Source: Chloroflexota bacterium (lineage in GTDB: Bacteria; Chloroflexota; Chloroflexia; Chloroflexales; Herpetosiphonaceae). From it: 64,000 nucleotides of DNA. The translations under genes were made by a program, and so were the position numbers. The notes under the pieces were generated by a model. It searched no databases. It saw nothing but the letters and a program-made list of their open reading frames with translations, and had not been told where the DNA came from. Shown one piece after another: positions 32,401-55,752 of this stretch (position 1 is the first letter of the stretch; every line of letters begins with the position of its first letter). The stretch covers positions 868,001-932,000 of the forward strand of contig JAIUOC010000001.1 in assembly GCA_020161265.1 (NCBI GenBank), given 5' to 3'.

Positions 32401-32665
32401 TCCGTTCTTGCGAGAATTTAGCTACTTCGCTATCAAGTTTCAATCGGATCTTAAGATCGGGGATTGATAGATTCGCATCAGTATTCTCACACAACAATAA
32501 GCGTAAGCCTTGTTTATGGGCGATTGGTTTAAGTATAAACGTTCGATCATCAACTGCCAGCAACACAGCTGACTCATTTAAAATACTCCAACCCAACTCA
32601 TCGCGAAGAGCTACAAAGTTAAACGTATTTAGTGCATTGCGTATCTTAGATTGATTAGCAGGCAT
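29441..32665 (-). CDS. Eco57I-like adenine-specific DNA methyltransferase
   Basis: About 1,074 residues from an ATG preceded by GGAGAG. The SAM-binding motif I is VLDPTCGSGAFLF near residue 503; the catalytic motif IV is DVIIGNPPYVAYPK near residue 743, so it is an N6-adenine gamma-class enzyme. The ~400-residue N-terminal region contains ILVFIDPAQTCQTWMWVKSD, similar to the front part of large type IIG/PglX-like enzymes. I see no secure nuclease motif. The last ~330 residues should be target recognition, and their DNA is markedly AT-richer than the rest. It lies between the helicase and DUF262 genes; together they suggest a restriction-like system. Confidence 0.85.
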   Translation of the reverse strand: MPANQSKIRNALNTFNFVALRDELGWSILNESAVLLAVDDRTFILKPIAHKQGLRLLLCENTDANLSIPDLKIRLKLDSEVAKFSQERILVFIDPAQTCQTWMWVKSDNGIRRPRAFTWTRGRTNDDLIQRLAELYVDISEEGRLSITDMAQRTRSAFDVEKVTKQFYKLFEERHDNFMKDIEGILDEESRKWYTSLMLNRLMFLYFIQRKGFLAGDPNYLRTKLNQIKKNYTPGVQGFYDFYNKFLLVLFHDGLSKPSYPSPIKSLIGDVPYLNGGLFDIHQLELENRIIRIPDVAFEKIFIFFDSYQWHLDDRLTNDDNEINPDVLGYIFEKYINRKQMGAYYTKEDITEYISKNTIIPAIFDRAALVNAAMPSFAVDGWIWDILKRNPDAYIYEAVRYGVKHDLPTEIACGLKNVQQRTLWNKPATKEFALPTETWREHIARRQQYQHIELQIKLGRVTSINDLITHNLDIISFARDVIALCDHSPTLRAIYTALESLSVLDPTCGSGAFLFAALNILQPLYEQCLDRMQEMLQKSLDAESSIFFTAVLARMNNRQKHPNKQYFILKTIILQNLYGVDIMEEAVEICKLRLFLKLMAQAESVRQIEPLPDIDFNIRAGNTLVGFARYAEVEELLDSKMDVSNTKERILAQAKMTNTAYHAFRTAQAGDDLSILNIAQSKARLRIALDQLNGSLNDYLAQEYRVNPLKADDFSTWLSTHKPFHWFVEFYSIIEDKGGFDVIIGNPPYVAYPKVRKGYTILKYRTEKANNLYAFAIERSICLVNKDIRLGMIVPIASISTESMKSLQDIYKNFTSWNSNYAVRPGKLFNGVDMNLSITILAKKYTQSIYSTNYIRWNDGINGSRDYIFDKLNYVKVDNIDGLSNNFPKIGNNLEVSIINKMISFSKKLGFFENKSGQKVFYHSGGRYWRKAILNSLSSHYKPISVDRENIDVVLCILNSQLFYWFWIQNSNCMDVVSREVFEFPVFDIFGKNQLFCDISRDLLNIYYSNKKMRERRGDIIRADEINFDVSKAKHIIDSIDYLLSQCYGFTAEELDYIINYDIKYRMGGDSEEE

Positions 32666-32758
32666 AAGATGTCTCTCCAAGCTAGATCATTACATTATGA
32701 GTATTGGATCAGCCACTGGCATTACATCGACACTACAGCTCAAACAGAAGATTCCTAC

Positions 32759-35700
32759 TTAACGATCCCATATCCCTAGTGAGCAAATTAATCGTGGTTC
32801 TCGCACATCATCATCATCATGAATAATACAGAGACGGTTCTCATTTCGCAGCGCCATGATCAATTCAGCGAGAGCTTGATCACTAATTCCTGCTCGAAGT
32901 TGACGATTAATACTATCCAAGGCTGTTTGACGCAGAGGATAACGATAGATGTCATCAACAGCGCGGGATAACTCTGTCGATTCAAATATCTGCCCACGAA
33001 TACTATCTGTATAATGTTTCAAGCGCTCATACGTGCGAAAACGAGCACCAGTGGTTCGGCCTAAGCCACCACCAACGGTTTGTTCTTCATAGGTAATATG
33101 TTCTACACCAGCCTGGACTAAGCTATGATGCTGGATATGACGACTAATAGCAGGGGTATTAGGCGAGCAGGCAGCTGCTTGCAAAATCGTCAACTGTGAC
33201 TGGGTTATATAGCGTTTCGCTTCATCAACCCACGCAAGGGCATCATTTCCATTAGCCGTCCGTAGATAAACTAAGACTCCCGACGGATAAGCAGGAAGTG
33301 AATTAAATGAACGGCTACTATAAATCACGTCTGGAAGATTCGGAATTAAGTGGTTGAGGCCAGGATCATTATCTATAGCATTTTTCCAAATTTGATAGGC
33401 ATACGACACTAAATCAATCTCACCTGGATCATCATCGCCATCAAGCACCGCAGCATTTTCGCTATAGAGATCGAGCAAAGATGTATCATTTTGCTCATCT
33501 TCAAAAAAAGCCTCATCGCTGCCCATAACTTCGGCATTTTGACGTAAGCGATCACGCACTCGTGCCCGTAACTTGAGAATTCGCTCAATTCCATCCGCTG
33601 GTAAGAACGAATAGCAGAGAATTTCTTGAGCAGTTTGACCGATACGATCAATCCGTCCTGCTCGTTGAATGAGTCGAATAATTGCCCAAGGTAAGTCATA
33701 ATTAACAATAATATGGGCATCTTGAAGATTTTGGCCTTCACTCAATACATCAGTAGCAATCAGAATCCGAATTTCATCGCTAGGTTGCAACAGACTAATA
33801 CCGTTGCTCTTAGGGCTAAACCGTCGGATCAACATCGTTGCATCAACTGATCCACCTTTGATCGTCGCTACTTGTTGGATACCCGCTAAGTGTAATTGTG
33901 CTTTGAGATAGTCAAGTGTATCGGCAAACTGGGTAAAAACAAGAATTTTCTCGTGGGGGTGTTGACGTTCGATTAAATCAACCAACTGCTGGAGTTTTCG
34001 ATCATGCGCTGGAATCCATTGCCCACAATGAGTCGCCACATAATGGAGACGTTGGATATCAGCCATTAGCTGGCGTTTCAAATCACGGCTAAAAAAGCTC
34101 GGACGAACCCACTTAAATTGATTATGATAGCGGGTTGCATACGCTTGATACAATACGCTAGCACGCTGGCGAAATCGCAGAGGACTCCACAGGTGATCAG
34201 GCTCTTCTAGGAGTAAGACTGGATCATCATTCGGTGTCGTAATATCATGATCTTGATCATGTTGGCTTGAATCGAGCAAGGCCGCGCTTTGTGAGCCAAG
34301 CGGAATCGCACGATTCTGATCGAGCGCATGTAACACAATATAATTGCGCAGAATATGACGCTCAATTGATTGTAAAAATGCTGGCCCGCCACTTTCCAAG
34401 CGCTTAAAAATATTCGTGCGACTAAACCCGCGTAGCCGATTGCGAGCACGACGCAAATCCTCGATAATTGCAAGCTCACTCGCCGATGGATGCTCAGAAA
34501 ACGATGAGCGAAGATACATTCCAAGCGCATACCGAGGAAGCGTTAATTCATCGATGGCATCGACAACCAACGGATCAAGCAAGCGTGAATAGCCATTATT
34601 AGGATCATCAGGATCAATATTGAAGCGTAGTGTCCGTGGGATGCGTTGGGGGAAAATCGTTTTGTTACCATTTGAAAACTGTAAAAACCGTAAGCCTGTT
34701 TCGACATCAAGAACAGCATAGTTTTGTTTGATGAAGGATCGTGTTCGCCGAACCAAGTATCGGCGCATCAATTCACGCCAGTCATCAGCATAGGTGCTTT
34801 TTTCAAAGGCTGCAAGGGTTGAAGGCGATCGTTGATGCAGTCGCGCAAAATCTAGCTCACCAATCTCACGCAGCAACATTTCAGGCCGAATTCCAAGATC
34901 TTCATCTTCATCAAGAAATAATCCCAATTGGGCTGACAGATCCCGATATTGTTTGTTATAGGGTGTCGCTGATAACAGAATACACTTGCTATCGCTCTGT
35001 TGAATATAGGTTTTGAGCGCCTTATAACGTTGCCCTTCAGGATTACGCAAATTATGACTTTCATCGATCAACACCAAGCGATAGCGTGCTGGAATCGTCT
35101 GCATTTCGGCTTCAGTTACCCGACTTAAGGGCAGCACCCGCGCTCGCAAGCCATAGCGTTGACTATAAGCGACCCACATATCTTCGAGATGTTTAGGGCA
35201 GATAATTAACGTGCTATAGCCATAACTATCCTCCATCATGCGAGCTAAGGCGGTGGCCATCATCGTCTTACCCAAACCCACCACATCGCCGATGAGCACT
35301 CCACCTCGTTGTTTGAGATGACGAGCTGCAATTTTCACGGCTGCTGCCTGAAAATCGAAAAGTTCCTGGTTCATATCAAATGGGATAGAAAATTCGGCTA
35401 AACCTGCGCGAGCTTCCTGCGATAAATGATAAATCATCTTCAAATAGACATGATAGGGAGCAACTGTTGATCCTCGTGCCCAACTTTCATCAATAATCGC
35501 CGCCAATTCTGCTGAAATATCAAGACACCAGCGATCATCCCAAAGTTCATCAAACCATCCTTGTAATTTCTCGCAAGTATTTGTTTCAAGAACATCAAGA
35601 TTCAATTCTGTTTGGGTTACCAAGCCAGCAAACGTCAAATTACTGCTACCAACGTACCCAATAAATGGATTAAGTGGATCAGAAACTTGAAATAAATAAA

Positions 35701-36121
35701 GCTTCGCATGTAGGTTATGACGCAAAAACAATTTAATCACAACTTTGCCTTCTTTAAGTTGGCGGCTCAGCTGACGCAAGCCCGCTTCATCGGCATTATT
35801 GGGAGCACCCACCATTAACTGTTGACGAAACTCCTCAGCCATTTGTTGTTTCAAGCGCACAATTCGCGACTGATCCATCCCAAGATTGGGAACAAGACTT
35901 AGGGCAGCGCGAAGTTCATCACGGGGTGCAGACTGCATCCCAATGAGAACTCGGCAACATGAATGCTGACCACCAGACCATTGATCTATGCGATCAGCAA
36001 TCATTCGCCATCCTCGCAAATTAAAATAGCCAATACAAAAATCAGCCCGAAGCGCTGAATCAAGTGTAAGCAGCAGTTGGTCAAGAAACTGTCGATGCAT
36101 ATTATCAAAGATATCAGGCAT
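32759..36121 (-). CDS. PLD-nuclease-like domain fused to SNF2-type helicase
   Basis: 1,120 residues. Residues ~1-200: phospholipase-D-like domain with HNLHAKLYLF (HxK) near 135 and GYVGSSNLTFAGL. Residues ~250-480: SF2 helicase core with Walker A GDVVGLGKTMMAT near 277, DESHN near 350 and LLSATPYN. Residues ~690-860: helicase C-terminal lobe with EKILVFTQFADTLDYLKAQL, LIATDVLSEGQNLQ and QRAGRIDRIGQT. The last ~250 residues are of unknown fold. Such PLD-helicase fusions accompany methylases in defence islands and probably translocate on DNA and cut it. It is the first gene of the minus-strand cassette. Confidence 0.88.
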   Translation of the reverse strand: MPDIFDNMHRQFLDQLLLTLDSALRADFCIGYFNLRGWRMIADRIDQWSGGQHSCCRVLIGMQSAPRDELRAALSLVPNLGMDQSRIVRLKQQMAEEFRQQLMVGAPNNADEAGLRQLSRQLKEGKVVIKLFLRHNLHAKLYLFQVSDPLNPFIGYVGSSNLTFAGLVTQTELNLDVLETNTCEKLQGWFDELWDDRWCLDISAELAAIIDESWARGSTVAPYHVYLKMIYHLSQEARAGLAEFSIPFDMNQELFDFQAAAVKIAARHLKQRGGVLIGDVVGLGKTMMATALARMMEDSYGYSTLIICPKHLEDMWVAYSQRYGLRARVLPLSRVTEAEMQTIPARYRLVLIDESHNLRNPEGQRYKALKTYIQQSDSKCILLSATPYNKQYRDLSAQLGLFLDEDEDLGIRPEMLLREIGELDFARLHQRSPSTLAAFEKSTYADDWRELMRRYLVRRTRSFIKQNYAVLDVETGLRFLQFSNGNKTIFPQRIPRTLRFNIDPDDPNNGYSRLLDPLVVDAIDELTLPRYALGMYLRSSFSEHPSASELAIIEDLRRARNRLRGFSRTNIFKRLESGGPAFLQSIERHILRNYIVLHALDQNRAIPLGSQSAALLDSSQHDQDHDITTPNDDPVLLLEEPDHLWSPLRFRQRASVLYQAYATRYHNQFKWVRPSFFSRDLKRQLMADIQRLHYVATHCGQWIPAHDRKLQQLVDLIERQHPHEKILVFTQFADTLDYLKAQLHLAGIQQVATIKGGSVDATMLIRRFSPKSNGISLLQPSDEIRILIATDVLSEGQNLQDAHIIVNYDLPWAIIRLIQRAGRIDRIGQTAQEILCYSFLPADGIERILKLRARVRDRLRQNAEVMGSDEAFFEDEQNDTSLLDLYSENAAVLDGDDDPGEIDLVSYAYQIWKNAIDNDPGLNHLIPNLPDVIYSSRSFNSLPAYPSGVLVYLRTANGNDALAWVDEAKRYITQSQLTILQAAACSPNTPAISRHIQHHSLVQAGVEHITYEEQTVGGGLGRTTGARFRTYERLKHYTDSIRGQIFESTELSRAVDDIYRYPLRQTALDSINRQLRAGISDQALAELIMALRNENRLCIIHDDDDVREPRLICSLGIWDR

Positions 36122-39120: not shown

Positions 39121-40911
39121 CTATTGGCTGATATAGGGCGCAAACAGCACAAAACGGGTTGGCGCAGGCAAGCTATATTCAAATGCGCCAATATCACAAA
39201 CCGCTTGCAGATCGCCATCGCCATCTTGTGGGCGGGCAATTCCCCGCTGATCAAACGGGCCACAATCAGCACCAGCATCAATCGCTGGACTCAGCGGATT
39301 AAGGCTATAACTCCGAGTTGTGCCAGAATGAAAATCAAATTGATCGAGGATCGGGTCAAGATTAAGTTGATCACTCGCTTGTGCTTGAAAAGTACAGTGG
39401 CTGGGATGTTCTAGCAAATTATGGTCAAGACTTAGAACCGTGCCCCTACAATCATAGACATCAACTACGCTAGTATTATAATTCTTGGCCACAATTGTAT
39501 TGCCAATGGACATACGGCCAATCGCGTAGAGGCCTGCAGTCAACATATTTTCATTACCATCATCATTCTCATAATAGCCATTGGTGTTGGAAACAATCGT
39601 TGAATTGGTAATTGTCATTATTGCAGTCGCTTGGAGTTGAGCAATCCCGCTGCCCGTATGAAACGAGTAATTATCGGCAATGGTGCTGGTGTCAAGCGTC
39701 ACCACACCGAGATTTTGGTAAATTGCGCCACCATAACCAAAACACTCTTCATCATTCCGAACCCCACCACTACTACGGTTTTCAACCCATTCACTATCAA
39801 GCAGCGTTGCCTTGCCAGCATGCTGATAGAGCGCTCCGCCGAGATCAGCATAGTTGCCAATAAAGCGACTTCGGCTAACCGAGAGCGTTGCCGCATTATA
39901 AATTGCCCCACCACGCGAACATTGACGGGCATTAGAATTACTAAAACCATTCGCAATAAAGGTAGTATCAGCAATTGTGGCGCTGCTTGCTCCACGCAGT
40001 GACAAGCCCTGTGGCGTATTATTTAACAGCCCACCACCTGTTATCATCACTCGCCCACCAAGGACATTGATCGCAGCCGAGGTTTGGTGACTATCGGATG
40101 AACGCTGAATCACGCTATTCAGCAGACTTAAATTACCCTTGATCATATAAATTGCTGGCCCAAAACCACGTTGATTGTTATCAAAAAGCGAATTGGTAAT
40201 AGTCACCGCTTGGCTACTTATGTATAAGCCAGCCCCAAAACCACTGCCTGCATCAAAACCATCAACATATGAACGTAACGTATTACTGCGAATCGTACTG
40301 TCGTCGATCTTGAGGGTTCCGTTCAGGCTAGCAATGCCACCACCATAGTTATTGCCCAGCAGCGTGGAGCGCAGCAAGCCATTCCGTTCAATCAAACTCG
40401 ATTGAATATGCAGATTGCCATAGCGATGCAAAATACCATGGCCATAGTAGCGTCCCGTTTCATCATCATTATCCACAAAGCCATTGCGAATTTGCAGATT
40501 GTTCAGGGTCACCGTGGCCGTGTAGATATCGAGTACGCGATCGCTTTCCATGCCATCAATAATTGTGGTGGCCGAACTCACCCCAGTAATCGTTAAATCG
40601 CTCAAAATATCCAGATCGCCAAGCGCACCCGTCTCATCATTCATGCCATTGCGGGTTAAACGATAGCTTGCCGCAGCGAGCTGAATCGTATCGTTCGCTC
40701 CACCAGCGGGACAAGCATCATAGGCCTGGTTGGTATTGGCCGCATAAAGCGCCTCACGCAACGAACATGTGCCATTATCGGCAATAAAATCATCATCCGC
40801 CGTTGTTACCACAAAGGTCGTTTGCAGGCTCGCCGCTTGGGCAGGCAACATGAACCCCAGCAGGCTCACAAAACCAATTATAACCAGCAATCCACGGACA
40901 AAAGAACCCAT
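39121..40911 (-). CDS. Secreted CSLREA-domain right-handed beta-helix protein
   Basis: 596 residues. A signal peptide (VRGLLVIIGFVSLLGFMLPAQA) is followed by the CSLREALYAAN motif near residue 48, the entry element of many secreted beta-helix proteins. The body is rich in short N/D/S/T repeats with isolated hydrophobic positions (NSLFDNNQ, SRFIGNYADLGGALYQ, STIADNYSFHTGSGI), as in pectate-lyase-like helices. The end, SPAIDAGADCGPFDQRGIARPQDGDG..CDIGAFEY, is the choice-of-anchor Q-type C-terminus. The role is probably surface adhesion or polysaccharide binding. GGAGGGTTT precedes the ATG. Confidence 0.85.
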   Translation of the reverse strand: MGSFVRGLLVIIGFVSLLGFMLPAQAASLQTTFVVTTADDDFIADNGTCSLREALYAANTNQAYDACPAGGANDTIQLAAASYRLTRNGMNDETGALGDLDILSDLTITGVSSATTIIDGMESDRVLDIYTATVTLNNLQIRNGFVDNDDETGRYYGHGILHRYGNLHIQSSLIERNGLLRSTLLGNNYGGGIASLNGTLKIDDSTIRSNTLRSYVDGFDAGSGFGAGLYISSQAVTITNSLFDNNQRGFGPAIYMIKGNLSLLNSVIQRSSDSHQTSAAINVLGGRVMITGGGLLNNTPQGLSLRGASSATIADTTFIANGFSNSNARQCSRGGAIYNAATLSVSRSRFIGNYADLGGALYQHAGKATLLDSEWVENRSSGGVRNDEECFGYGGAIYQNLGVVTLDTSTIADNYSFHTGSGIAQLQATAIMTITNSTIVSNTNGYYENDDGNENMLTAGLYAIGRMSIGNTIVAKNYNTSVVDVYDCRGTVLSLDHNLLEHPSHCTFQAQASDQLNLDPILDQFDFHSGTTRSYSLNPLSPAIDAGADCGPFDQRGIARPQDGDGDLQAVCDIGAFEYSLPAPTRFVLFAPYISQ

Positions 40912-40973
40912 AAACCCTCCACAGCCAAAGTAACAGCAAGGCTAGTATCGGCGATGGTGGATATAAACACAAT

Positions 40974-40994
40974 CTAAAAAGCTCGGCTTTTTAG
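40974..40994. terminator. Hairpin terminator with A/T arms
   Basis: CTAAAAAGC-TCG-GCTTTTTAG, a perfect 9-bp stem about 115 bases after the ammonia-lyase stop. The A5/T5 runs suit termination in both directions. Confidence 0.5.
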
Positions 40995-41041
40995 GGCACA
41001 TTTGTGGAGTTTTTTTGACTGAATGACTCGATTAACGAATC

Positions 41042-41079
41042 GCGCCAATTTCTGCCATAAACAGGCCGGAAATTGGCGC
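41042..41079. terminator. Hairpin downstream of the ammonia-lyase gene
   Basis: Perfect 11-bp arms GCGCCAATTTC / GAAATTGGCGC with a 16-base loop, about 30 bases after the stop of the ammonia-lyase gene on the minus strand. It probably ends the minus-strand transcript of the ligase/lyase genes. Confidence 0.55.
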
Positions 41080-41109
41080 AACTGCTTGATTCAGCTGTTT
41101 AAGCGAAGA

Positions 41110-42810
41110 TTAGGCAAATAAAATTATTGAGCGCAAACTATCTAAGGTTTCTTGAATTGCCTGGGGAATAATTCCATCGTTGGTGATGTCGCTAACGATT
41201 GCGCTGATATGTTGTTCTAAAGCTTGTTCGTTGTCATTCCAAATGTAGGGGCGTTCGTGCGAAATCGGCTTGCCTACCACTTCACGCATCGCACTGTAGA
41301 GCTTGGCGGTCATCGGCGAAAGTGTTTCAACTGCGTTATAGTGCCCAGTTCGCTTGAAGGTGCGTAAATCGACCGCTTGCACCCCAAAAATCAAGGCAAT
41401 CGCAATATATTGTTGCAAAGTTTCGATCGTTTGGCGGGCCAAATTAGCCGAACCAAAGCCTTGGCTGTTGATATTTTGGTTAAATTGTTCAGCATGCGTT
41501 GGAAAACGATCAGCCAACGAGTTACCCAAAAAGCCCAAAATTGGCATAATCGAGTTGCCCGAAATTTGCAAGCCTTTGAGGCCCATATTGACCTTGCGGT
41601 CGGTGTTGCCGACCAAAGAGGCCGATAAGCCATTGTTGAATTGTGGCGAAACCAACAAAGCAATTTGGACATCAAGGTGTTTGGCCATCAAGCCCATGTA
41701 ATAGCGCAATTGATCCATGCCTACGCCAATGTATTGGCCGAGGAAATTGCCGCCATGATAGCTGGCCCCAGCTTCGGTATTAATTAAAGGATTATCGTTG
41801 GCCGAGTTGATTTCGACTCGCAAATGATGGGTGATATAGGCCATACCATCAATGATTGGCCCAAGAAACTGGGGCAAACAGCGCAGCGAATAGCGATCTT
41901 GAATCAAATCACCCTCGCGATATTCATGTCGTCCATCAAGTTCATCGCGCGATAACGCCGAGCCTTCTAAAATTTGTAGCATATGGTCGGCGGCCCAAAC
42001 TTGGCCAGTATGCGCTTTATGCTGATGAATAAACGGGTGGAATGATTGATTGGTGCCTTGCAAGCCTTGAATCATCAACCCATGGATATTCAGCGCCAAG
42101 CCCAGCAAAATCCTTGCATCATGCAGCACATTCGAAGCAATCCCCGTCATCACCGATGTGCCATTCATCATGGCCAAGCCTTCTTTGGGCAACAACTGCA
42201 AGCGTGGCAAGTTGAGCCGTTCCAAAGCCTCAAGACAATCAATATTTTCGCCATCAAAATCGACGCGGAAGGCGGGATCTGTGCCAAGCAAGGCTCCAGT
42301 AATGCTGATTAATGGCACAAGATCGCCGCTAGCCCCAATTGAACCAAACTCGCGCACATGCGGCGTGACATTGGCATTCAAAAACGTCATCATGCGTTGA
42401 ATAATTTCCAGGCGAATGCCCGAAACCCCGCGCATATGCGAATTGGCGCGTAGCAACATCGCCGCCCGGACATCGGCCAAGGGCAACAATTTGCCAGCGC
42501 CAGTTTTGTGATACCAAATGGCATTATTCTGCAAATCGGCAGCTTCCTCGGACGAAATAACCACATCGGCCATGCCACCAAAGCCAGTTGTTACCCCATA
42601 CACAGGCTTACTAGCTTTAACTGCATCGTTAATGTAGGTACACGAGGCCTCGATCTGTTGCAAGATCTCAGGATTATCAGTTAGCCCAACTGGTTGATTA
42701 TGGCGAGCCACGCGAACAACGTCCTCAATGGTTAGGCCTGTACCTGTTAGGGTTACTTGGTGGCGCATGTGGTTTTCCAACGTTGAATTTGTTGATAGTC
42801 GCTCTAACAT
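41110..42810 (-). CDS. Aromatic amino acid ammonia-lyase (tyrosine/phenylalanine)
   Basis: 566 residues from the longest start; family alignment favours the ATG at codon 15 (MRHQVTLTG). The MIO-forming triad Ala-Ser-Gly lies at 160-162 in FGSIGASGDLVPL. Further motifs are YGVTTGFGG, EGLAMMNGTSVMTGI, QDRYSLRC, NSANDNPLI, SYHGGNFLGQY and THAEQFNQNINSQG. These match bacterial PAL/TAL enzymes closely. The two substrate-selectivity residues, normally Phe-Leu in cyanobacterial PAL, are Tyr100-His101 (IWYHKTGAGK). From memory this pair also occurs in the Herpetosiphon tyrosine ammonia-lyase HaTAL1, so p-coumarate from tyrosine is the favoured product. The gene is followed by terminators and preceded by a CoA-ligase gene. 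Confidence 0.9.
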   Translation of the reverse strand: MLERLSTNSTLENHMRHQVTLTGTGLTIEDVVRVARHNQPVGLTDNPEILQQIEASCTYINDAVKASKPVYGVTTGFGGMADVVISSEEAADLQNNAIWYHKTGAGKLLPLADVRAAMLLRANSHMRGVSGIRLEIIQRMMTFLNANVTPHVREFGSIGASGDLVPLISITGALLGTDPAFRVDFDGENIDCLEALERLNLPRLQLLPKEGLAMMNGTSVMTGIASNVLHDARILLGLALNIHGLMIQGLQGTNQSFHPFIHQHKAHTGQVWAADHMLQILEGSALSRDELDGRHEYREGDLIQDRYSLRCLPQFLGPIIDGMAYITHHLRVEINSANDNPLINTEAGASYHGGNFLGQYIGVGMDQLRYYMGLMAKHLDVQIALLVSPQFNNGLSASLVGNTDRKVNMGLKGLQISGNSIMPILGFLGNSLADRFPTHAEQFNQNINSQGFGSANLARQTIETLQQYIAIALIFGVQAVDLRTFKRTGHYNAVETLSPMTAKLYSAMREVVGKPISHERPYIWNDNEQALEQHISAIVSDITNDGIIPQAIQETLDSLRSIILFA

Positions 42811-42828
42811 GTCCTAAACCTTTCGAAT

Positions 42829-44334
42829 TTAGGCTCCAGCCTCGTTGCGTAAGAGCCGCTTTAACACTTTGCCGGTCGGGTTTTTGGGAATTGAATCAAC
42901 GACTTTGATTGCGGTTGGCACTTTAAAGCTCGCCATATGTTGGCGACAAAACGCGATAATTGCTTGAATTGGCAGCTGTTGATTGGCTTTGAAGACGATT
43001 TGGGCTTCAACGCGTTCTCCAGTAATCGCATCGGCAACCCCATAGACCGCCACTTCAGCAACCTCGGGTAATTGATAGATGACGTTTTCGACTTCAGCGG
43101 GGTACACTTTAATCCCAGCAACGTTGATCATATCTTTCAACCGATCAACGATAAATAAATAACCAGCTTGGTCTTTTTTGCCAAGGTCGCCTGTATAAAA
43201 CCAGCCATCGCGAATTGCTTGCGCGGTTGCGGTTGGATTATTCCAATAGCCCAACATGACATTTGGGCCACGAATAATAATTTCTCCCACCTCATCAGGC
43301 AATACTTCGACATCGGTTTCAATATCGACGATTTTTATTTCAACTTGCTCAATTGGCACACCAACCGAGCCAAGTTTATAGTCGGAGATATGATTATAAG
43401 CAGCAAACGGTGAGGTTTCAGTTAAACCATAGCCTTCATGAATTGGTAATTTATATTTGGCATACCAACGCTGAGCAATTTCAAGCGGCAAAATTGCTGC
43501 TCCTGAGAAGAAATAACGTACTGCATGAAATTGCTCAGGCTCAGTTTTATTCAATAGCAACAGATAAATTGTTGGTACACCAAAAAACATCGTTACTTGA
43601 TCGGATTGAATTGAACGCAGCACTAAATCAAGATTAAAGCTGCGGTGTAATACAATTGTGGCTCCAGCATTCAGGGCACTATTAAAAATCGCATTTTGGC
43701 CAAAACAATGAAAAAGTGGCACGCACAGCAATAAGCGATCGCTTGAGCGCATATCACAATAGCGATTTTTAGCCTGCATATTCGAGATAATATTATGGTG
43801 CGAGAGAGTTACACCTTTGGGAAAGCCAGTCGTACCCGATGAATACACAATCGCAGCCGGATCATGGGGTTGCATAGCACGAGCTTGATATTCCTTGGGC
43901 GCTGATTCGATTAAGCTGGCTAAACTTGTCGATGCATCAGCCGAACCAGTGACGAGCACATGCTTGAGGCTTGGGCATTCAGTGATTGGCACACGTTGGG
44001 CTAATTCTGGCGTGGTGATCATTGCTGTAGCTTGGCTATCGTTGACAATAAATTGAATCTCGTTGTACTGGAGTTGCACATTCAACGAAACGGCAATCGC
44101 GCCGAGTTTAATAATGCCAAGATAGCTAAACATAAATTCAGGAATATTGGGCAAGAAAAGCGCGACGCGATCGCCAACCCGAATGCCAAGTTGGGCTAGG
44201 CCATTAGCCACTTGATTAGCTTGTTGATCAAGTTCTTGATAGCTATAGTGGGTATTTTCAAAAATCAGCGCTAGCTTGTTGGGGCTGTGAAGTCGCGCTT
44301 TTTCAATATGCTGGGCAATATTCATCTGCTGCAT
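42829..44334 (-). CDS. 4-coumarate:CoA ligase-like acyl-CoA synthetase
   Basis: About 501 residues from the start MQQMNIAQHIEKA (AAGGG five bases upstream); a start three codons later is possible. ANL-superfamily motifs: AAIVYSSGTTGFPKGVTLSH, YGLTETSPF, GWFYTGDLGKK, DRLKDMINVAGIKVYPAEVE and the catalytic Lys in KNPTGKVLKRLL. It activates a carboxylic acid to an acyl-AMP and then to CoA or a carrier protein. Its position 18 bases before the ammonia-lyase gene, transcribed together, makes coumarate or cinnamate the likely substrate. A medium- or long-chain fatty acid remains possible. About 200 bases separate it from the glycosyltransferase gene. Confidence 0.88.
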   Translation of the reverse strand: MQQMNIAQHIEKARLHSPNKLALIFENTHYSYQELDQQANQVANGLAQLGIRVGDRVALFLPNIPEFMFSYLGIIKLGAIAVSLNVQLQYNEIQFIVNDSQATAMITTPELAQRVPITECPSLKHVLVTGSADASTSLASLIESAPKEYQARAMQPHDPAAIVYSSGTTGFPKGVTLSHHNIISNMQAKNRYCDMRSSDRLLLCVPLFHCFGQNAIFNSALNAGATIVLHRSFNLDLVLRSIQSDQVTMFFGVPTIYLLLLNKTEPEQFHAVRYFFSGAAILPLEIAQRWYAKYKLPIHEGYGLTETSPFAAYNHISDYKLGSVGVPIEQVEIKIVDIETDVEVLPDEVGEIIIRGPNVMLGYWNNPTATAQAIRDGWFYTGDLGKKDQAGYLFIVDRLKDMINVAGIKVYPAEVENVIYQLPEVAEVAVYGVADAITGERVEAQIVFKANQQLPIQAIIAFCRQHMASFKVPTAIKVVDSIPKNPTGKVLKRLLRNEAGA

Positions 44335-44531
44335 CTTTCCCTTATCAATTCGTGGTTGGGCCGACCAACCTTCAATATCAGCACATTGGCACAAAGCAAG
44401 GCCTACGGGGTGCTCGCTGGAAGTGGCATCGCAGCCAATCTCAATCAGCAAACACCTCGATTGATCGCAAACAAATAACCTAGGAATCAGCCTTAATTGA
44501 GCACCAGAGGCGGCACTGCCTAGGGGCAAGC

Positions 44532-45875
44532 TTACGAGGCAACGGTTCGGGTATGCGGTAATTTGCTTTGAATTAATTCCAGCGCTGGGCTAGCAGCCTC
44601 CAAGGCGCGAAATTCCTCGCCCATTGCCGTAACTCGTTGTTTAAAGTTAGGATTTTGAATCACTTGGTTGAGCATGGTTTCCAGCGCTTGGGCCGAAACT
44701 TTACCCATCGCACCCATCAACCCTAGCTCATGGTAAACAACCCGCGCCGCATAGCCAGGTTGATCACGCATCCCAGGGAATACCACCATTGGCACGTTGA
44801 AATAGACACATTCCTTAATCGTGCCAACCCCACCATGGGTAATCATCACGCTGGTGCGCGGCAAAATTTGCTCGACCGAAGCCCATTGCAGCAAATGCAC
44901 ATTGGCTGGCACATTGGCAAATTCATGGGCTTTAAATTCTTTGCCGAGCGCCATAATCAATTGCCAATCGGGGCGACTGCGCATTGTGTCGATCACGGTT
45001 TGAAAAAAGCGCCGACTATGCTTGTAGATATGGCTTTGGCTGCCCAAGGTACAAAAAATCAGCGGTTTGTCGGGGTCAATCTGCGACCAATCAAAGGCCG
45101 CTTCTTGACGATCAAGATCGATCGATGGCTCACAGTAGAAAATCCCTTGCTCAACGCTTGGCCGTGGAAAATCAAAGGCTTGCGGGCAAAGCACGAGTTC
45201 GGGTATCTCAAGTTGCGGTCGCAAGCGCGGAAATAGCGCCGCTGGCACAACTAAATCGGCAGGAAAGCCAAAGTGGGTTGCCAGTTCGGTTAGTTTTTTC
45301 TGAAAATTGTAGCCAATCAAAAGGTTGGTTATTTTGATCGCTAACCCGCTGAATTTCCAAGCCATGCCAGCTTTAGAGAGCGAGGCAGGGGTGTTATCGG
45401 GCACAATATTGGTGACAACTGGCGGATAATTGGCGGCCTGCGGAAGATTAATATTAATACTCAGACTAATCACTTCCAGGCCAGCATGCCGCGCCATAAG
45501 GCTCAGCGGGGCCAAAAATCCATCAAAAAGACATAAATCTGTCCCAATATCCAACAAACTACGCTTGATTGGATTTTGATCTTCACGCACAGTTTGAAAC
45601 AACTTGAGATAAAACGCCGTTTGCGAAACCTCTTTCAAAAAGGCTCGGCCACGGGTGTTTGCAATTCGCTCGGTTTGCTGAGCACGAAAGCCCTTGGGAA
45701 AATCCTCAGCAAACAAGGGCAAATATTCAAAGCCTTGCTTGCGAATATACTCCTCAAAATCGGCCAAGGCTAAATAGTACACCTGATGGCCTTGGGCTTT
45801 TAAGCTTTTGCCAAGCTTGAAACTAGGAATAAGATGGCCTTCTTCGGGAAACATACTGATAACAATCGTCGCCAT
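44532..45875 (-). CDS. MGT/UGT-family glycosyltransferase
   Basis: 447 residues of GT-B fold. The N-terminal acceptor domain begins VISMFPEEGHLIPSFKLGKSL. The C-terminal donor site reads VMITHGGVGTIKECVYFNVPMVVFPGMRDQPGYAARV, equivalent to the HGG...E/DQ nucleotide-sugar motif of macrolide and plant UGT enzymes. It probably transfers a sugar to a small aromatic or polyketide molecule. Its place beside the ligase/lyase genes and an exporter suggests tailoring or self-resistance by glycosylation. AGGAG lies 11 bases before the ATG. Confidence 0.9.
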   Translation of the reverse strand: MATIVISMFPEEGHLIPSFKLGKSLKAQGHQVYYLALADFEEYIRKQGFEYLPLFAEDFPKGFRAQQTERIANTRGRAFLKEVSQTAFYLKLFQTVREDQNPIKRSLLDIGTDLCLFDGFLAPLSLMARHAGLEVISLSININLPQAANYPPVVTNIVPDNTPASLSKAGMAWKFSGLAIKITNLLIGYNFQKKLTELATHFGFPADLVVPAALFPRLRPQLEIPELVLCPQAFDFPRPSVEQGIFYCEPSIDLDRQEAAFDWSQIDPDKPLIFCTLGSQSHIYKHSRRFFQTVIDTMRSRPDWQLIMALGKEFKAHEFANVPANVHLLQWASVEQILPRTSVMITHGGVGTIKECVYFNVPMVVFPGMRDQPGYAARVVYHELGLMGAMGKVSAQALETMLNQVIQNPNFKQRVTAMGEEFRALEAASPALELIQSKLPHTRTVAS

Positions 45876-45898
45876 TTGATCATACTCCTATCGTGGTT

Positions 45899-45940
45899 CC
45901 CCCTCGCTCGCTCGGCGGGAGAGGGGGCTAGGGGTGAGGG
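45899..45940. repeat. Dispersed GC-rich intergenic repeat
   Basis: CCCCCTC...GAGGGGG arms enclose the text GCTCGCTCGGCG, followed by GCTAGGGGTGAGGG. This type of boilerplate palindromic element is dispersed in many bacterial genomes. It lies in the gap between the glycosyltransferase and the exporter permease. Confidence 0.5.
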
Positions 45941-45947
45941 AGCGCAA

Positions 45948-46709
45948 CTAGGCCACGCCTTGACGAAACGAGCGCACCGCCCAAAAAACACCCAAAAACG
46001 ACAATACGCCCATCACTGCAAACCCTTGCCAAACCGCTGGATGTTCAAGCTGACCAATAAACAAGGCCCGCGAGGCATCAACAGCATAGGCAAATGGATT
46101 AACTCCCGCGACATTGCGAATCCAATCAGGAGCTAAAGTGAGCGGTAGCGTAATGCCTGAAAGCAGTAAAATTGGCAAGATCAAAAAGTTGAGCAACGAG
46201 GCAACTGTGTTTTCATCCTGCAAAATCAGCGCAACCGCATACGAGCATGAAGAAACCAACAAGCCCAGCAGCACCACAATCAACAACGAAAGCGCTACGC
46301 CAGCAGGATCAGCCCGCAAGCCCATAAGCCATGCCACGCCAACCAGCACCAAGGCTTGCAGCAGCAACATCGTGACATCGCGCAGCAAACGCCCAAGCAC
46401 GAGCGCCAACCGACTCAGTGGCGTAACCCGCATGCGCTCAAGCACGCCCGCCCGCAACTCGGCAATAAAGCCAAATACCACAAACAACGAGCCAGTAATA
46501 CCCAACATCACCAGCAAGCCAGGCGTAAAAACCCCGATTGCGCCGCCTTCGGGAAAGCCCTCAGTTCCAGCAATTGGCTCTAACAAGGGCGCAAATAATA
46601 ACAATTGCACCACTGGTTGAAAAAGGCCGACAATCACCATCACTGGGTTGCGCATGGTCATGGTGAGATAATGTTTAAACAGCAGCCATGTATCACGTAG
46701 CGATTGCAT
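45948..46709 (-). CDS. ABC-2 type exporter permease, DrrB-like
   Basis: 253 residues with six hydrophobic segments (NPVMVIVGLFQPVVQLLLFA; GLLVMLGITGSLFVVFGFI; LVSSCSYAVALIL; LLNFLILPILLLSGITLPL; and C-terminal VMGVLSFLGVFWAV). The cytoplasmic ELRAGVLERMRVTPLSRLALVLGR is the usual ABC-2 amphipathic loop. It pairs with the ATPase encoded 14 bases upstream. Together they form a DrrAB-type exporter, often used for self-resistance in antibiotic producers; exported substrate unknown. Confidence 0.92.
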   Translation of the reverse strand: MQSLRDTWLLFKHYLTMTMRNPVMVIVGLFQPVVQLLLFAPLLEPIAGTEGFPEGGAIGVFTPGLLVMLGITGSLFVVFGFIAELRAGVLERMRVTPLSRLALVLGRLLRDVTMLLLQALVLVGVAWLMGLRADPAGVALSLLIVVLLGLLVSSCSYAVALILQDENTVASLLNFLILPILLLSGITLPLTLAPDWIRNVAGVNPFAYAVDASRALFIGQLEHPAVWQGFAVMGVLSFLGVFWAVRSFRQGVA

Positions 46710-46723
46710 TGAATATCCTCGAG

Positions 46724-47689
46724 CTAGTTGGCAGACTCGCGTAATGAACGACCAGTTTGCTTAAGAAAAACATCATCCAGCGAAGGGCGCGAAAGTTCAA
46801 CGGTTTGAACTTGCACATTGGCTTCATCGATCAGCCGCAAAATTAATGGCAAAGCCTCGGAGCCACGGTCAACCACCAAGCGAATTGTTTGCTCAGCATA
46901 TTCCAGCGAATGGATATAGCTCTGCTGTTGCAACAAAGCTTGAACGGTGTGATCGATTTCAGGTTGAAATTGCAAGCCCAAGGTGATCGTATCGCCAACG
47001 ATCTGGCGTTTGAGGGCATCGGGCGTACCTTCAACCACAATCCGACCATCATCAATAATCGCCAAGCGTTGACAGAGTGCATCAGCCTCATCAAGGTAGT
47101 GGGTCGTCATAAAAATCGTTGTGCCCTCGGTATTCAGACGGCGCACCTCAGCCCACAACCAAGCCCGACTTTGCGGATCAAGCGCGGCAGTCGGCTCATC
47201 GAGCAAGAGCAATTTAGGTTTATGCACCATACCCAAGGCCAAATCGAGGCGACGGCGTTGACCACCGGAGTAGCTGCTACTTGGGCGATCGGCAATCTGC
47301 TCAAGATCAAGCGCTGCCAATAATTCTTTGGCTCGCACATCGGCATCGTGAGGGGTTATGCCATAAAAGCGGGCTTGTAGAATCAAATTTTCACGCGCAG
47401 TACAAGCGCCCTCGGCTCCGCCAGCTTGGCTCACATAGCCAATTTTTTCGCGAACCTGGCGCGAATGTTGTAAGAGATCGATACCAGCAATCGTTGCCTG
47501 ACCACTACTTGGCTTGAGCAAGGTCGTCAGCATGCGCATTGTGGTCGTTTTACCGGCCCCGTTCGGCCCGAGAAATCCAAAAATTTCGCCTGCTTGAACA
47601 TTCATCGTCACGCCTTTGACGGCCTCGACTAAGCGTCCACGCACCCGAAAACTTTTGGCCAATTCCTTGGTTTCAAGAATAATCATCAA
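46724..47689 (-). CDS. ABC exporter ATP-binding protein, DrrA-like
   Basis: 321 residues. Walker A LGPNGAGKTTTM, signature SYSGGQRRRLDLAL, Walker B LLLLDEPTAALD, H-loop MTTHYLDEADALC, and a C-terminal ~90-residue extension typical of daunorubicin-resistance ATPases. It powers the DrrB-like permease. The start may be either of two consecutive ATGs. The position beside the glycosyltransferase and PKS/NRPS genes suggests export of the locus product. Confidence 0.93.
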   Translation of the reverse strand: MMIILETKELAKSFRVRGRLVEAVKGVTMNVQAGEIFGFLGPNGAGKTTTMRMLTTLLKPSSGQATIAGIDLLQHSRQVREKIGYVSQAGGAEGACTARENLILQARFYGITPHDADVRAKELLAALDLEQIADRPSSSYSGGQRRRLDLALGMVHKPKLLLLDEPTAALDPQSRAWLWAEVRRLNTEGTTIFMTTHYLDEADALCQRLAIIDDGRIVVEGTPDALKRQIVGDTITLGLQFQPEIDHTVQALLQQQSYIHSLEYAEQTIRLVVDRGSEALPLILRLIDEANVQVQTVELSRPSLDDVFLKQTGRSLRESAN

Positions 47690-47953
47690 GCTGCTCCGTT
47701 GAGGTTCATGTGTGATAGACCGTTTTCAGCATTGGAAGCCTCGACCGCATGATGGAACGAGGAATTGGCGGCAAACGTGATGTTCAGATTAGAACAATTG
47801 TTCACCGAGCAACCTGGTGTTGCAGGTTGATAGTACGCCAGGGGTGAGATGAGGCAGCAGATGGCGCAAGCATATTCATGGCGCTAGCGTCAGCTTCGTT
47901 GCCTAGCTAGCACCCTAGTTGTTTCCCAAATTAGGCCTTGGGATTATTTATGC

Positions 47954-48703
47954 CTATTCAGGTTTATTGGCGTTAACTCGTCGCACGATCTGCATAATCA
48001 AGGTGCTGATGACTCCTGCACCCAGCGAGGCCAAACCAGCTTTGCGGGCAGGACCTTTTGATTGCGCCAGCCCTGATAACATCTGCGAGCAAAGCACACC
48101 CAAAGCAGTTGCAGCCAAGACATCTTGTTGCGAGCGGAAGGTCAAGCGCTGGCGATCGGTTGCCAGCGAAGCCAAAAAGACCCCCAACAAACAGTAGGAA
48201 GAACCAGACATATTTGTCAGCACAGCATCATCGTCAGCTTGGGGCGCAGTCACGAGCAATGGCACAAAAATACCCAGCCGTACCGCTGAAAAAGCGAGAC
48301 TAAACGATTGGAAGCGGGTAGTTGCTGTGCCTAAAATGCTGACGGCAGCACCTTCACGGAGGGCCGCAGCGAGGCTAGGGTGAACCAAGCTATAGCTAAG
48401 AATTCGCCAAACTTGGCCTGTGTTAAGCTGCGATTTTTGAAACGCACCCCAGCCGGCTTTGGTTTCGGCCTCGCTTGAGTTGGCATTCATCAACGCACTC
48501 AGACCACTCAACCCATACAGCACTGCCACCTTGGCTAAACTGTCGGTGACAGGCACCAACAATGCACCAACTGGCAGCAAATCGGCAGCGTCGGTTGATT
48601 CTAGGGCGCTATCGTCAACGGTTGTATGTTCGCTCAGGGCAAAAAGTTGTTTGGTGGCCTGCAAACCCAACCCGATCATGCTTAATCGATCAAATATGTT
48701 CAT
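47954..48703 (-). CDS. Unknown hydrophobic protein
   Basis: About 249 residues starting MNIFDRLSMIGLG. Several moderately hydrophobic, Ala/Leu/Ser-rich segments (LAKVAVLYGLSGLSALM; SLAFSAVRLGIFVPLLV; YCLLGVFLASLA; a glycine-rich stretch near the end), with few charged positions. This could be a small membrane protein or an amphipathic helical one. I do not recognise the family. GAGGAG lies 13 bases before the ATG. It is on the same strand as the exporter, 265 bases upstream, facing the large regulatory gap. Confidence 0.6.
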   Translation of the reverse strand: MNIFDRLSMIGLGLQATKQLFALSEHTTVDDSALESTDAADLLPVGALLVPVTDSLAKVAVLYGLSGLSALMNANSSEAETKAGWGAFQKSQLNTGQVWRILSYSLVHPSLAAALREGAAVSILGTATTRFQSFSLAFSAVRLGIFVPLLVTAPQADDDAVLTNMSGSSYCLLGVFLASLATDRQRLTFRSQQDVLAATALGVLCSQMLSGLAQSKGPARKAGLASLGAGVISTLIMQIVRRVNANKPE

Positions 48704-49471
48704 GCTGTTGTTGCTACTCCTCAATCGATTGGCTAGCTAAATCAACTAACGTCATCAAATTGCTGATCTGCCAGTGGCAAAACCAAAGGACAGGATTTGG
48801 GATCACAACCCAAGCTGGGGCAAAAATGTTGTTTTGTGATGCAGCTTTGGCGAATCGTGGCGATTGCACATCAGTCTATAGACCGATAAATCGATCGATA
48901 ACTGATTAAATCGTACAATGTAAAGCTTAATTGATCAGCAACTACTTGGAAGATGTTTTACGATCGATTTTTAGGATGACTTCTGGCAAATAGTCGCAAA
49001 ATTAATGAGTCTTAGGGCTGATTTATGTTGCTGACGATACATCAACAAATTAAGCTTAAATTTAACGAATCTTCGCACACAGCGTGGATAATAACCTAAG
49101 AAAATAAATTATGCAAGAACCCCAAATCTACTGCATATACATGCTCAATCAAATCACAAGCATGCCTAGATATATTTTAATCTGCCTTGACAATGTTAAT
49201 GAACTCTAACTATAATAGGCGCGTTGTAAGTCAGCTGTGCTAAAAATCGTTGATCGAACTAGGCTTGTGTTAATCTCTTAACCTCAAGTTAACTCGACTT
49301 AACAAATAAAATAGTACAGTTTAGGGCTTCACAATCAGCTCATTATAAATAGCAAACTCTCCTGTTTAATCAAGGTAAATCCTCTTATTTCATCCTACTC
49401 CTTTACCAAGATAACAGATACCCAGGCTTTTTATTTAACGATGTAAATGTATATAGCTACAGCTAAATTTA

Positions 49472-49522
49472 GATAGTTTGCACAATAACTCGTGGAAACT
49501 TTTTTGGATAGTTTGTACAATA
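49472..49522. promoter_or_regulatory. Direct repeat pair GATAGTTTGNACAATA
   Basis: GATAGTTTGCACAATA at 49472-49487 and GATAGTTTGTACAATA at 49507-49522, differing at one base, 35 bases start to start. The spacing (about 3.3 helical turns) and similarity suggest tandem activator or repressor sites for the PKS operon. Confidence 0.55.
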
Positions 49523-49708
49523 TGGGTTTACTCGAATAGCTTTACAGCATTAGATTATTAATCAGAATGAAACTTCAATATCATACCGATCAATACAGTT
49601 TCATAAACCTATATTGTTATAAATTAATTATTCAGAATTTACATTGAGTAAATTTATTCAATTTTACTTAATTATAACATCATTAAGTTATTTATTACCA
49701 TAAAACCC

Positions 49709-49752
49709 GAATCTTAATCTAATAGAAATTACTTATTTATTAGATAAGATTC
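49709..49752. promoter_or_regulatory. Long AT-rich inverted repeat
   Basis: GAATCTTAATCTAATA and TATTAGATAAGATTC pair over 15 positions with one bulged A and a 13-base loop. About 165 bases upstream of the PKS start; possible operator or leader structure. Confidence 0.45.
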
Positions 49753-49773
49753 AGATCGTCTTAGGTATATTAA

Positions 49774-49800
49774 TTCTGATACTTCTGGCAAGTATCAGAA
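49774..49800 (+). promoter_or_regulatory. Perfect 11-bp hairpin in the PKS leader
   Basis: TTCTGATACTT-CTGGC-AAGTATCAGAA. There is no T tract after it, so it is unlikely to be a plain terminator. It lies 117 bases before the PKS start and may act in the leader RNA or as an operator. Confidence 0.5.
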
Positions 49801-49916
49801 GCTTAACAGTTCAATACATATAAAGACCGATTTCAATCTGATGTAACTTCCAGTATATAGATGCTCACAACTTCGATTAAACCTTATCGCACAATGCTAC
49901 ATTACAGAGGATGACT

Positions 49917-52900
49917 ATGAACAACCTACCATCTGGAACGGATAGCATCAAGCCTGAAACAATCGAAACAACCGCAGAAATATTAACTGAGTGGTTAGTA
50001 AATCACTTTTGTACCTATTTAAACGTTTCCTCGAATGAAATTGATGTGCGCTTGCCTTTTGCGCACTATCAAATCGATTCAATCCAAGCGCTTAGTTTAA
50101 TCAGTAAGCTTGAGCAATTTCTAGGGCGTTCGCTCTCACCAACATTGCTTTGGGATTATCCGAGCATTGCAACGTTGGTTCCAGCGCTGATCGGCACTGA
50201 ACAGCCTGAAGTCGCAATCGTGGCTGATTCCGACCAAAATGCTGATGCAATTGCCATTATCGGCATGAGTTGTCGCTTTCCTGGTGCTCGCAATTTGGCC
50301 GAATACTGGGATTTATTGATTAACGGTCGCGATGCAATTACCGAAATTCCTGCCGAGCGTTGGAATTTAGAGGCCGTGTATAACCCCGATCGCAGTGTGC
50401 CCGGCACGATGTACACCCGTTGGGGTGGCTTTGTTGATCAGCCTGATTATTTCGATGCAGGCTTTTTTGGCATCTCGCCGCGAGAGGCCATTCACCTTGA
50501 CCCACAACAGCGCATGTTGTTGGAGTGCACATGGGAAGCCTTCGAAGATGCTGGTCAATCGCCACAAGCCTTGGCTGGCAGCAAAACTGGGGTGTTTATT
50601 GCTTCAGTCAGCGAAGATTATGGCCGAATTTTATTCAGCCACCCCGAAATTATCGATGCCTACACTGGCCCAGGCACGGCCCACAGCATTTTGGCCAATC
50701 GGCTCTCATATGTGCTGAATTTGCAAGGCCCAAGCATCAACATCAACACAGCTTGCTCGGGATCACTCGTCGCAATTCATATGGCCTGCCAAGCATTGCA
50801 AACGGGCGAAGCCGATCTGGTGGTTGCTGGCGGGGTCAATGCCAGCTTGTTGCCTGATGGCAATCTATTTTTCTCTAAAGCTGGAGCCTTATCGCCCGAT
50901 GGCCGCTGCAAAACCTTCGATGCTCGCGCCAATGGAATTGTGCGTAGCGACGGCGCAGGCATTGTAATTCTCAAGCCTTTGCAAAAAGCCTTGGCCGATG
51001 GCAACCCAATTTATGCAGTCATTCGTGGCAGCGCCGTCAATAGCGATGGCCGTACCAACGGGATTATGGCTCCCAACCGTCAATCGCAAGAGGTTGTACT
51101 GCAAGAAGCCTATCGCCGCGCTGGAGTTAATCCCGCGACAGTGCAGTATATCGAAGCCCATGGCACGGGCACAAGCCTTGGCGATGTGATCGAGGCCCAA
51201 GCACTTGGCGCAGTTTTGGCAGTTGGACGCTCAGCCCAACAACCCTGTGCGCTTGGCTCGGTCAAAACCAATATTGGCCACAGCGAATCAGCAGCAGGCA
51301 TTGCAGGGGTGATCAAGGTGGCACTGGCAATGAAACATCAGCTCTTGCCGGCAAGTTTACACTTTGAAACTCCCAACCCCATGATTCCGTTTGAGGAACT
51401 CCGCTTGCAGGTTCAAGCCCAACGTGGGCCATGGCCCAATGCTAGCGGCCCGCTCTTAGCAGGGGTTAGTGGCTTTGGTTTTGGCGGTACAAACGCTCAC
51501 GTGGTGCTCGAATCGGCTCCAATTCGCGAAACCCAAAGCCCAAATATCAACGATGCTTGGCCATTGTTATTGCCATTATCAGCCCAAAGCGAGCCAGCCT
51601 TATGGCAACTTGCAGCCCGCTATGCCAGCCAAATTGCCGCCGCTAGCCCGAGCGAAGTTGCCAATATTTGCTATAGCGCTAGCGTTGGGCGCAGCCAGCT
51701 TGATCATCGCCTTGCCGCATATGCAGCCAGCCCAGCCTTGCTTGCCGAACAGCTCAACGATTTTGCTGAGGGTCGCTCCGTCACTGGTTTGATCACCCAA
51801 GATCGTTCGCAAGCCCACAAATTGGTTTGGGTCTTTTCAGGCCAAGGCTCGCATTGGGTTGGCATGGGGCGCGGTCTGCTTGGCCAACAACCAATCTTCC
51901 GCCAAACCCTCGAAGCTTGCGATCAAGCCTTCGCTAATTATGCTGGTTGGTCGTTGATCGCAGCCTTGCTCGATGATCAAGCTGCTGAGCAGATCAACCA
52001 AACGGATCGTGCTCAACCGCTGATTTTTGCCTTGCAAGTCAGTCTCGCCGCGCTTTGGCGATCATGGGGCATTACTCCGGCGGCGATTGTTGGGCATAGT
52101 TTAGGCGAGGTCGCTGCGGCCTATGTCAGTGGTGTGCTAACGCTCGATGAAGCGGTACAAGTGGTTTACCATCGCAGCCGTTTGATGAAGCAAGTTGCTG
52201 GCAAAGGCAAAACTGCCGCCGTCGAATTGACCTTCGAGCAAGCCCGCTTGCTGTTGGTTGGCCGCGAACAACAGGTAGCAATTGCTGGCATCAATAGCCC
52301 AACCTCGTGTATTCTGGCGGGCGATCCGAGCACGTTGGAGCAATTAGTTGCCTCGTTGCAGCATAACGATGTGTTTGCTCGCTTGGTGCGCGGGGTTGAT
52401 ATTGCCTTTCATAGCCCACAGATGGAGCCACTAGTTCCTGAATTAAACGCCGCTTTGGCCCAGCTCAAACCACAAGCGCCCATGATTCCCTTGGTTTCAA
52501 CCGTGACTGGCACGTTTGCCGAGCAAGCGCTCTACAGCGAGGGTTATTGGGGCCGCAATCTGCGTGAACCATTCTTGTTTGCCACTGCGATCAAAAGTTT
52601 GCTCGACAAGGGCTTCGATACATTTTTGGAAGTCAGCCCACACCCGGTTTTGGGTGAATCGATGTTGCGCAGCATCCAACACTTCAAGCAGTCAGCCCAA
52701 GTGTTTAGCTCGTTACGCCGCGATCAAGCTGAATTGGATTTGCTGTTTGAGACACTTGGGCGGCTATTCGTGGCTGGCTATAGCCCTGATTGGCAGCAGG
52801 TTTATCCCGAGCCACGTCAGCGCAGCGCTTTGCCAAACTATCCCTGGCAACGTGAACGCTACTGGTTCGATCAGCTTTTGCCAGCAACGAGCAATCAAAC

Positions 52901-55736: not shown

Positions 55737-55752
55737 GGTATGGAGATTTCAC

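Follow-up and report, generated by a model that had tools for sequence, protein, structure and literature searches.

Gene content and conservation of the block

The window (the whole stretch of DNA analysed, 64,000 nucleotides) comes from a genome of Herpetosiphon, a predatory soil bacterium, and contains the greater part of a block of 14 genes that runs from an aromatic lyase through to a TylF-type methyltransferase. The features of this block are the following (coordinates are those of the window).

41110 to 42810, minus strand: probable tyrosine ammonia-lyase (TAL), MIO type (PF00221; Tyr100-His101; ASG at 160-162; 99% identity to the H. aurantiacus DSM 785 orthologue)
42829 to 44334 (start maybe 44325), minus strand: acyl-CoA/AMP ligase, proposed 4-coumarate ligase (PF00501 and PF13193; adjoins the lyase in all Herpetosiphon loci checked)
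44532 to 45875, minus strand: macrolide-type glycosyltransferase GT1 (EryCIII-like_C/UDPGT; kept in the block)
45948 to 46709, minus strand: DrrB-like membrane subunit of an ABC exporter (PF01061; drrB model below cut-off; kept in the block)
46724 to 47689, minus strand: DrrA, ATPase of the ABC exporter (TIGR01188 over cut-off; kept in the block)
47954 to 48724, minus strand: rhomboid-like membrane protein (PF01694 weak here, strong in a second genus; kept in the block)
49187 to 49216, plus strand: promoter TTGACA-18-TATAAT, directed towards PKS1 (12/12 consensus match; hexamers invariant in five species)
49911 to 55736, plus strand: PKS1, ACP-KS-AT-DH-KR-ACP, with the N-terminal ACP as proposed p-coumaroyl acceptor (domains; active-site residues kept in five species)
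55708 to 60462, plus strand: NRPS1, C-A-PCP-C, with code DFWNIGMVH and a terminal C domain (domains; code and both HHxxxD motifs kept in five species)
60498 to 64000, continuing to 65987, plus strand: AulA orthologue, A1-A2-KR-PCP, cut at the window end (code GIFWLGASG; D413Y)
after AulA, to 76232, beyond the window: aulB, aulC, aulD, glycosyltransferase GT2 and the tylF-type methyltransferase gene (domains)

The preliminary description had placed PKS/NRPS genes beside the lyase-ligase pair. They are indeed present, but they do not end within the window and continue past it into the auriculamide genes. The lyase and ligase genes lie on the minus strand, divergent from PKS1 on the plus strand, and the gap between the two operons is 1.19 kb long with the perfect promoter inside it; across the five species compared, the promoter hexamers are invariant and the spacer is variable. 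A conserved small open reading frame was sought in this gap and not found, the conservation there consisting of the promoter and upstream blocks, and an Rfam search of positions 40000 to 60000 gave no match.

The 14 genes of the block are collinear among the five species of Herpetosiphon for which it was mapped. Its flanks are unconserved outside the H. aurantiacus-like pair, and the genes on one side of it are common only to the window and DSM 785 among these species. The lyase and AulA are both present, about 18 to 20 kb apart, in all six genomes of the genus; in DSM 785, which produces auriculamide, the gene order is the same and the gap between NRPS1 and AulA is similarly short. A second Herpetosiphonaceae genus (genome G012) has the genes in one co-directional run of about 40 kb with shuffled order and added sugar-nucleotide genes, which holds the lyase, the rhomboid-like protein, GT1, PKS1, NRPS1, AulA-D, GT2, the ligase, and both ABC subunits, and from which only the TylF gene is missing. 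The threonine code of NRPS1 and the inactive A1 domain of AulA (both discussed below) are kept there, with megasynthases about 46-52% identical to those of Herpetosiphon. That the genes were rearranged independently and yet almost all retained is strong evidence that the block represents one pathway.

Several neighbouring features were also observed. The rhomboid-like protein is retained within the block in two genera, without an evident biosynthetic role. A CSLREA/choice-of-anchor Q surface protein (39121-40911) adjoins the cluster in the window and is shared with DSM 785 but not with the other three species mapped. Elsewhere in the window, a restriction/defence island (25399-36121) carries a type IIG restriction-methylase, a PLD-SNF2 helicase, a GmrSD-type nuclease, and a nicking-endonuclease-like gene, with GC content down to 36% at 28-32 kb.

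The aromatic lyase and the adjoining ligase

The lyase is 566 residues long and matches PF00221 (Lyase_aromatic) with an E value of 7e-142 and 473.7 bits, against a gathering score of 27.3; its MIO triad is Ala-Ser-Gly at residues 160-162. A Tyr-His selectivity pair had been read in it and is found as Tyr100-His101. The contrast drawn with the Phe-Leu of cyanobacterial phenylalanine ammonia-lyase (PAL) holds for the AvPAL and NpPAL structures, but does not describe a general cyanobacterial state, as Tyr-His occurs in about 30 of about 80 aligned relatives, many of them cyanobacterial, and Phe-Leu is about as common and is also found in cyanobacteria. Tyr-His as the mark of a single TAL lineage was rejected, since the tree of these relatives implies six or more changes of the pair, and a literature search for Tyr-His as a TAL signature found nothing. 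With both states about equally common and switching repeatedly, the selectivity pair alone is a weak argument for tyrosine activity.

Tyrosine activity of the lyase is nonetheless well supported, the stronger argument being experimental. HaTAL of H. aurantiacus gave p-coumarate or its products in engineered Pseudomonas, Pichia, and Scheffersomyces. DSM 785 encodes exactly three PF00221 proteins, namely one HutH-type enzyme and two Tyr-His lyases that are 99% (the orthologue at 3.067 Mb) and 81% identical to the window lyase. HaTAL1, as a TAL of the same species, would be one of these two, and because both candidates are Tyr-His, the cloned enzyme should carry this pair whichever locus it was, assuming DSM 785 or a like strain as the source.

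We consider it highly improbable that the lyase is a PAL, a histidine ammonia-lyase (HAL), or a tyrosine aminomutase. Its closest solved structures are the PALs of Nostoc and Anabaena, with Phe-Leu at the selectivity pair, and no NCBIfam TAL model reaches its cut-off (FlxA, NF053541, 298.5 vs 700 bits; BagA/FevW, NF041222, 298.6 vs 1000 bits). Yet the tyrosine 2,3-aminomutase model (TIGR03832, 268.2 vs 501 bits) and the HAL models are also far below cut-off, the window's own genome encodes one such lyase and a separate HutH-type enzyme, and HaTAL, from the same small clade, is in use as a TAL.

A second TAL-ligase pair lies at 2.27 Mb in H. aurantiacus (locus L006, 4089-11671), next to dioxygenase-like and aminotransferase genes, a type II thioesterase (TE), a glycosyltransferase, and a large NRPS. 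This locus may correspond to the hydroxyphenylglycine-type cluster described in the genome paper.

In the window, the stop of the ligase gene is followed by exactly 18 bases (attcgaaaggtttaggac) and then the start of the lyase gene, as had been stated. The ligase end at 44334 corresponds to the ATG of MQQMNIAQ, and since orthologues begin MNIAQ, the true start may be 44325. The protein has the ANL adenylating fold (PF00501 and PF13193) with intact motifs, including the P-loop YSSGTTGFPKG and PTGKVLKR with the lysine of the C-terminal domain. Its description as 4CL-like stands as regards this fold and the adjacency to the lyase, and is not borne out by the family models, as the best curated model, over its cut-off, is the broad long-chain acyl-CoA ligase PRK06187. 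The closest solved relatives, at moderate similarity, are a feruloyl-CoA synthetase and a near-identical entry named 'fatty-acyl-CoA synthase', and plant 4CLs are distant matches. The proposed coumarate specificity of the ligase is based on its gene context.

This context extends well beyond Herpetosiphon. In most of the 80 loci examined, across phyla, a relative of the ligase is encoded on the same strand as the lyase and no more than 3 kb from it; PAL/TAL genes with ligase neighbours are thus widespread in this lyase clade, and the pair as a rarity was rejected. Five loci, four of Nostocales and one of Myxococcales, encode a ligase homologue with a fused carrier domain and, after it, a reducing PKS, which reads KS-AT-DH-KR-ACP in the two loci scanned against Pfam and aligns to PKS1 over its full length in the other three; ligase-carrier fusions also occur in two Planctomycetota loci. 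These fusions link this type of ligase to a carrier that feeds a KS, an arrangement in keeping with the unpaired ACP at the N terminus of PKS1. The Nostoc-type loci (L010, L011, L012, and L071) bring together a lyase, a homologous ligase, a carrier, and a KS-AT-DH-KR-ACP module as the window does, but their lyase has Phe-Leu, so that cinnamate is expected, and their carrier is fused to the ligase, whereas in the window it is fused to the PKS. Together with the Myxococcales locus (L068), they are candidate loci for cinnamoyl-primed polyketides.

A ligase that activates a fatty acid, with PKS1 taking a lipid starter and the lyase product incidental, appears very unlikely to us. The match to the long-chain model PRK06187 would fit it, as would the FAAL-like domain that precedes PKS1 in the second genus; the adjacency of lyase and ligase across phyla speaks against it, and the coumarate ligase FlxY of flexirubin biosynthesis, which also differs from plant 4CLs, nevertheless shows a 121-fold selectivity for coumarate relative to cinnamate (PMC3992019). 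FlxA and FlxY of Chitinophaga pinensis are in fact a tested precedent for a TAL and a coumarate ligase that together start an aryl polyene, although they work with discrete FAS-like enzymes rather than a modular PKS-NRPS (PMC3992019), and the window lyase scores far below the FlxA model.

The assembly-line enzymes and a proposed pathway

An unpaired carrier at the start of the PKS had been described, and a PP-binding domain at residues 27-90 of PKS1 indeed precedes the KS. The AT (xAFH), KR (LDD), and DH (His and Asp) motifs of PKS1 are present, with active-site residues kept in five species; the DH has Glu for the usual Gly of HxxxGxxxxP (Ala in one species). NRPS1 has the specificity residues D-F-W-N-I-G-M-V-H, the established code for threonine, and ends in a C domain without a TE or other release domain. 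Only 35 bases downstream on the same strand begins the AulA orthologue, which has no C domain of its own and consists of two adenylation domains, a KR, and a carrier. Its A2 code is GIFWLGASG, and its A1 has Tyr for Asp413, in a dead-A1 motif that reads QTRYLARW in five Herpetosiphon species and RTGYRARW in the second genus. Downstream of AulA follow the NRPS AulB, with the residues D-A-S-T-I-A-A-V-C read from motifs (presumably a tyrosine-type code), the PKS AulC with a TE, the type II TE AulD, GT2, and the TylF-type methyltransferase.

We infer a single collinear line to which the published aul genes belong and whose starter module is the lyase-ligase pair, and put the probability of this reading at roughly 0.7. 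It builds on the domain order, binding codes, intact active sites, and synteny observed here and on the activities of HaTAL and AulA demonstrated by others, and extends to the substrate of the ligase, the loading of the ACP, the diene, the ester bond, and the operation as a single line, all of which are predictions. On such a line from tyrosine to the product, the lyase would convert L-tyrosine to p-coumarate, which the ligase would adenylate and transfer to the unpaired ACP at the N terminus of PKS1, either directly or through CoA. PKS1 would add one malonyl unit, reduced and dehydrated to give a 5-(4-hydroxyphenyl)penta-2,4-dienoyl thioester, and NRPS1 would add threonine. The terminal C domain of NRPS1 would then form an ester to the alpha-hydroxyl of isoleucic acid held on AulA, AulB would add tyrosine or chlorotyrosine, and AulC would add a methylmalonyl-derived unit and release the chain through its TE. 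The glycosyltransferases and the methyltransferase may tailor the product, and the DrrAB-type exporter may export it.

The p-coumaroyl starter handed to the N-terminal carrier of PKS1 is supported as the best reading of the first steps, because the lyase clade is TAL-supported, the pair is invariant in the cluster, and homologous ligases are fused to carriers; the loading itself is predicted from these. It is quite unlikely, in our view, that the pair merely neighbours the PKS/NRPS genes and makes p-coumaroyl-CoA for some other use, such as sugar acylation, a type III PKS, or a pigment. The position of the pair in a divergent operon, the presence of a type III PKS in DSM 785, and the loading ligase domain that the second-genus PKS1 has of its own could be taken in this sense, but all mapped Herpetosiphon genomes keep the pair within the block, which has no acyltransferase gene in this genus, and the N-terminal ACP would be left without a loader. 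In the second genus, where the lyase has Leu-His at the selectivity pair and PKS1 has a FAAL-like domain before its ACP in addition to a separate 4CL-like gene, this extra domain suggests that the loading route may differ, be redundant, or not need the ligase.

The terminal C domain of NRPS1 without a TE, the absence of a C domain from AulA, the 35-base gap, and the retention of the block in two genera argue for a single line; the broad ligase model, the FAAL-like domain and Leu-His pair of the second genus, the published model of aulA-D only, the Glu in the DH, and the lack of a halogenase in the block argue against it. Two separate lines, one of the lyase, ligase, PKS1, and NRPS1 for a distinct acyl-threonine product and one of aulA-D for auriculamide, are in our judgement unlikely. 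Such a division would agree with the aul papers, which account for auriculamide by aulA-D alone, and with the activity of AulA by itself in vitro; it would, however, leave NRPS1 ending in a C domain without a TE or other partner and AulA without a C domain, even though the two genes always occur together in two genera, 35 bases apart on the same strand in the window.

Relation to auriculamide and PKS/NRPS 4

The single-line reading bears directly on auriculamide, in which isoleucic acid is joined to a chlorotyrosine-derived ethyl ketone (PMC5238615). The aul cluster of H. aurantiacus 114-95T has the same AulA layout, GIFWLGASG code, and D413Y change, followed by AulB, AulC, and AulD, and is the same locus in the type strain; as published, it spans 14.1 kb and comprises four enzymes, without the lyase, ligase, PKS1, NRPS1, glycosyltransferases, exporter, and methyltransferase (PMC5238615). 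AulA activates 3-methyl-2-oxovalerate in vitro, where its dead A1 is dispensable for adenylation, and the published model derives auriculamide from aulA-D alone, with no halogenase in the published cluster (PMC5238615). In our search with Trp_halogenase (PF04820), likewise, no halogenase for 3-chlorotyrosine was found in the block; the matches were only weak and lay outside the block, in the window's genome and two of the four other genomes.

Because the published cluster covers only aulA-D, the locus may make a longer p-hydroxyphenylpentadienoyl-threonine depsipeptide, with auriculamide as its C-terminal fragment. The free alpha-hydroxyl of auriculamide sits at the would-be ester site, so that the compound could arise as a fragment by hydrolysis or as a shunt product bypassing the upstream enzymes. 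We give about even odds to the full proposal, in which auriculamide, whose free alpha-hydroxyl would mark the broken ester, is the C-terminal piece of a larger glycosylated, coumaroyl-started depsipeptide, 5-(4-hydroxyphenyl)penta-2,4-dienoyl-Thr-O-isoleucic acid-(Cl)Tyr-propionate. The masses calculated for the monochlorinated core of such a product are m/z 615.247 as ketone, 641.226 as macrolactone, and 659.237 as beta-keto acid, compared with 342.147 for auriculamide. The conserved dead A1 of AulA may assist the transfer from the terminal C domain of NRPS1, which is speculation on our part.

The whole block has in all likelihood been catalogued before. PKS/NRPS 4 of the 2011 genome paper (Haur_02568-Haur_02581) comprises 14 genes with two PKS and three NRPS modules over 35.9 kb and was predicted to make a depsipeptide (PMC3368417). 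In DSM 785, the block from lyase through methyltransferase has 14 genes over 35.86 kb and matches PKS/NRPS 4 in size, gene count, and module count. The genome paper gives the depsipeptide prediction only, the starter, the product, and the link to aul being absent there (PMC3368417). The cluster, the auriculamide half, and the TAL chemistry are therefore already known, and what appears to be new within the literature searched, the 2015 auriculamide structure paper aside, is the joining of cluster, aul, and TAL, with auriculamide as a partial product.

If this proposal is true, the earliest reported natural product of Herpetosiphon aurantiacus has been linked to only half of the assembly line behind it, and the actual product is a larger molecule that may be a predation weapon. 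The H. aurantiacus-type TAL, an enzyme of metabolic engineering, would then have a native role, the locus would be a clear case of a p-coumarate-primed modular PKS-NRPS, and a reason would be suggested for the retention of the inactive AulA A1 in two genera.

A larger relative of the cluster was observed in another genus of the Herpetosiphonaceae (loci L118-L120; genome G005, contig C4, about 148000-200000), where a Tyr-His lyase directly precedes a PKS1-like gene and the locus also holds a 4CL-like ligase and an extended series of NRPSs.
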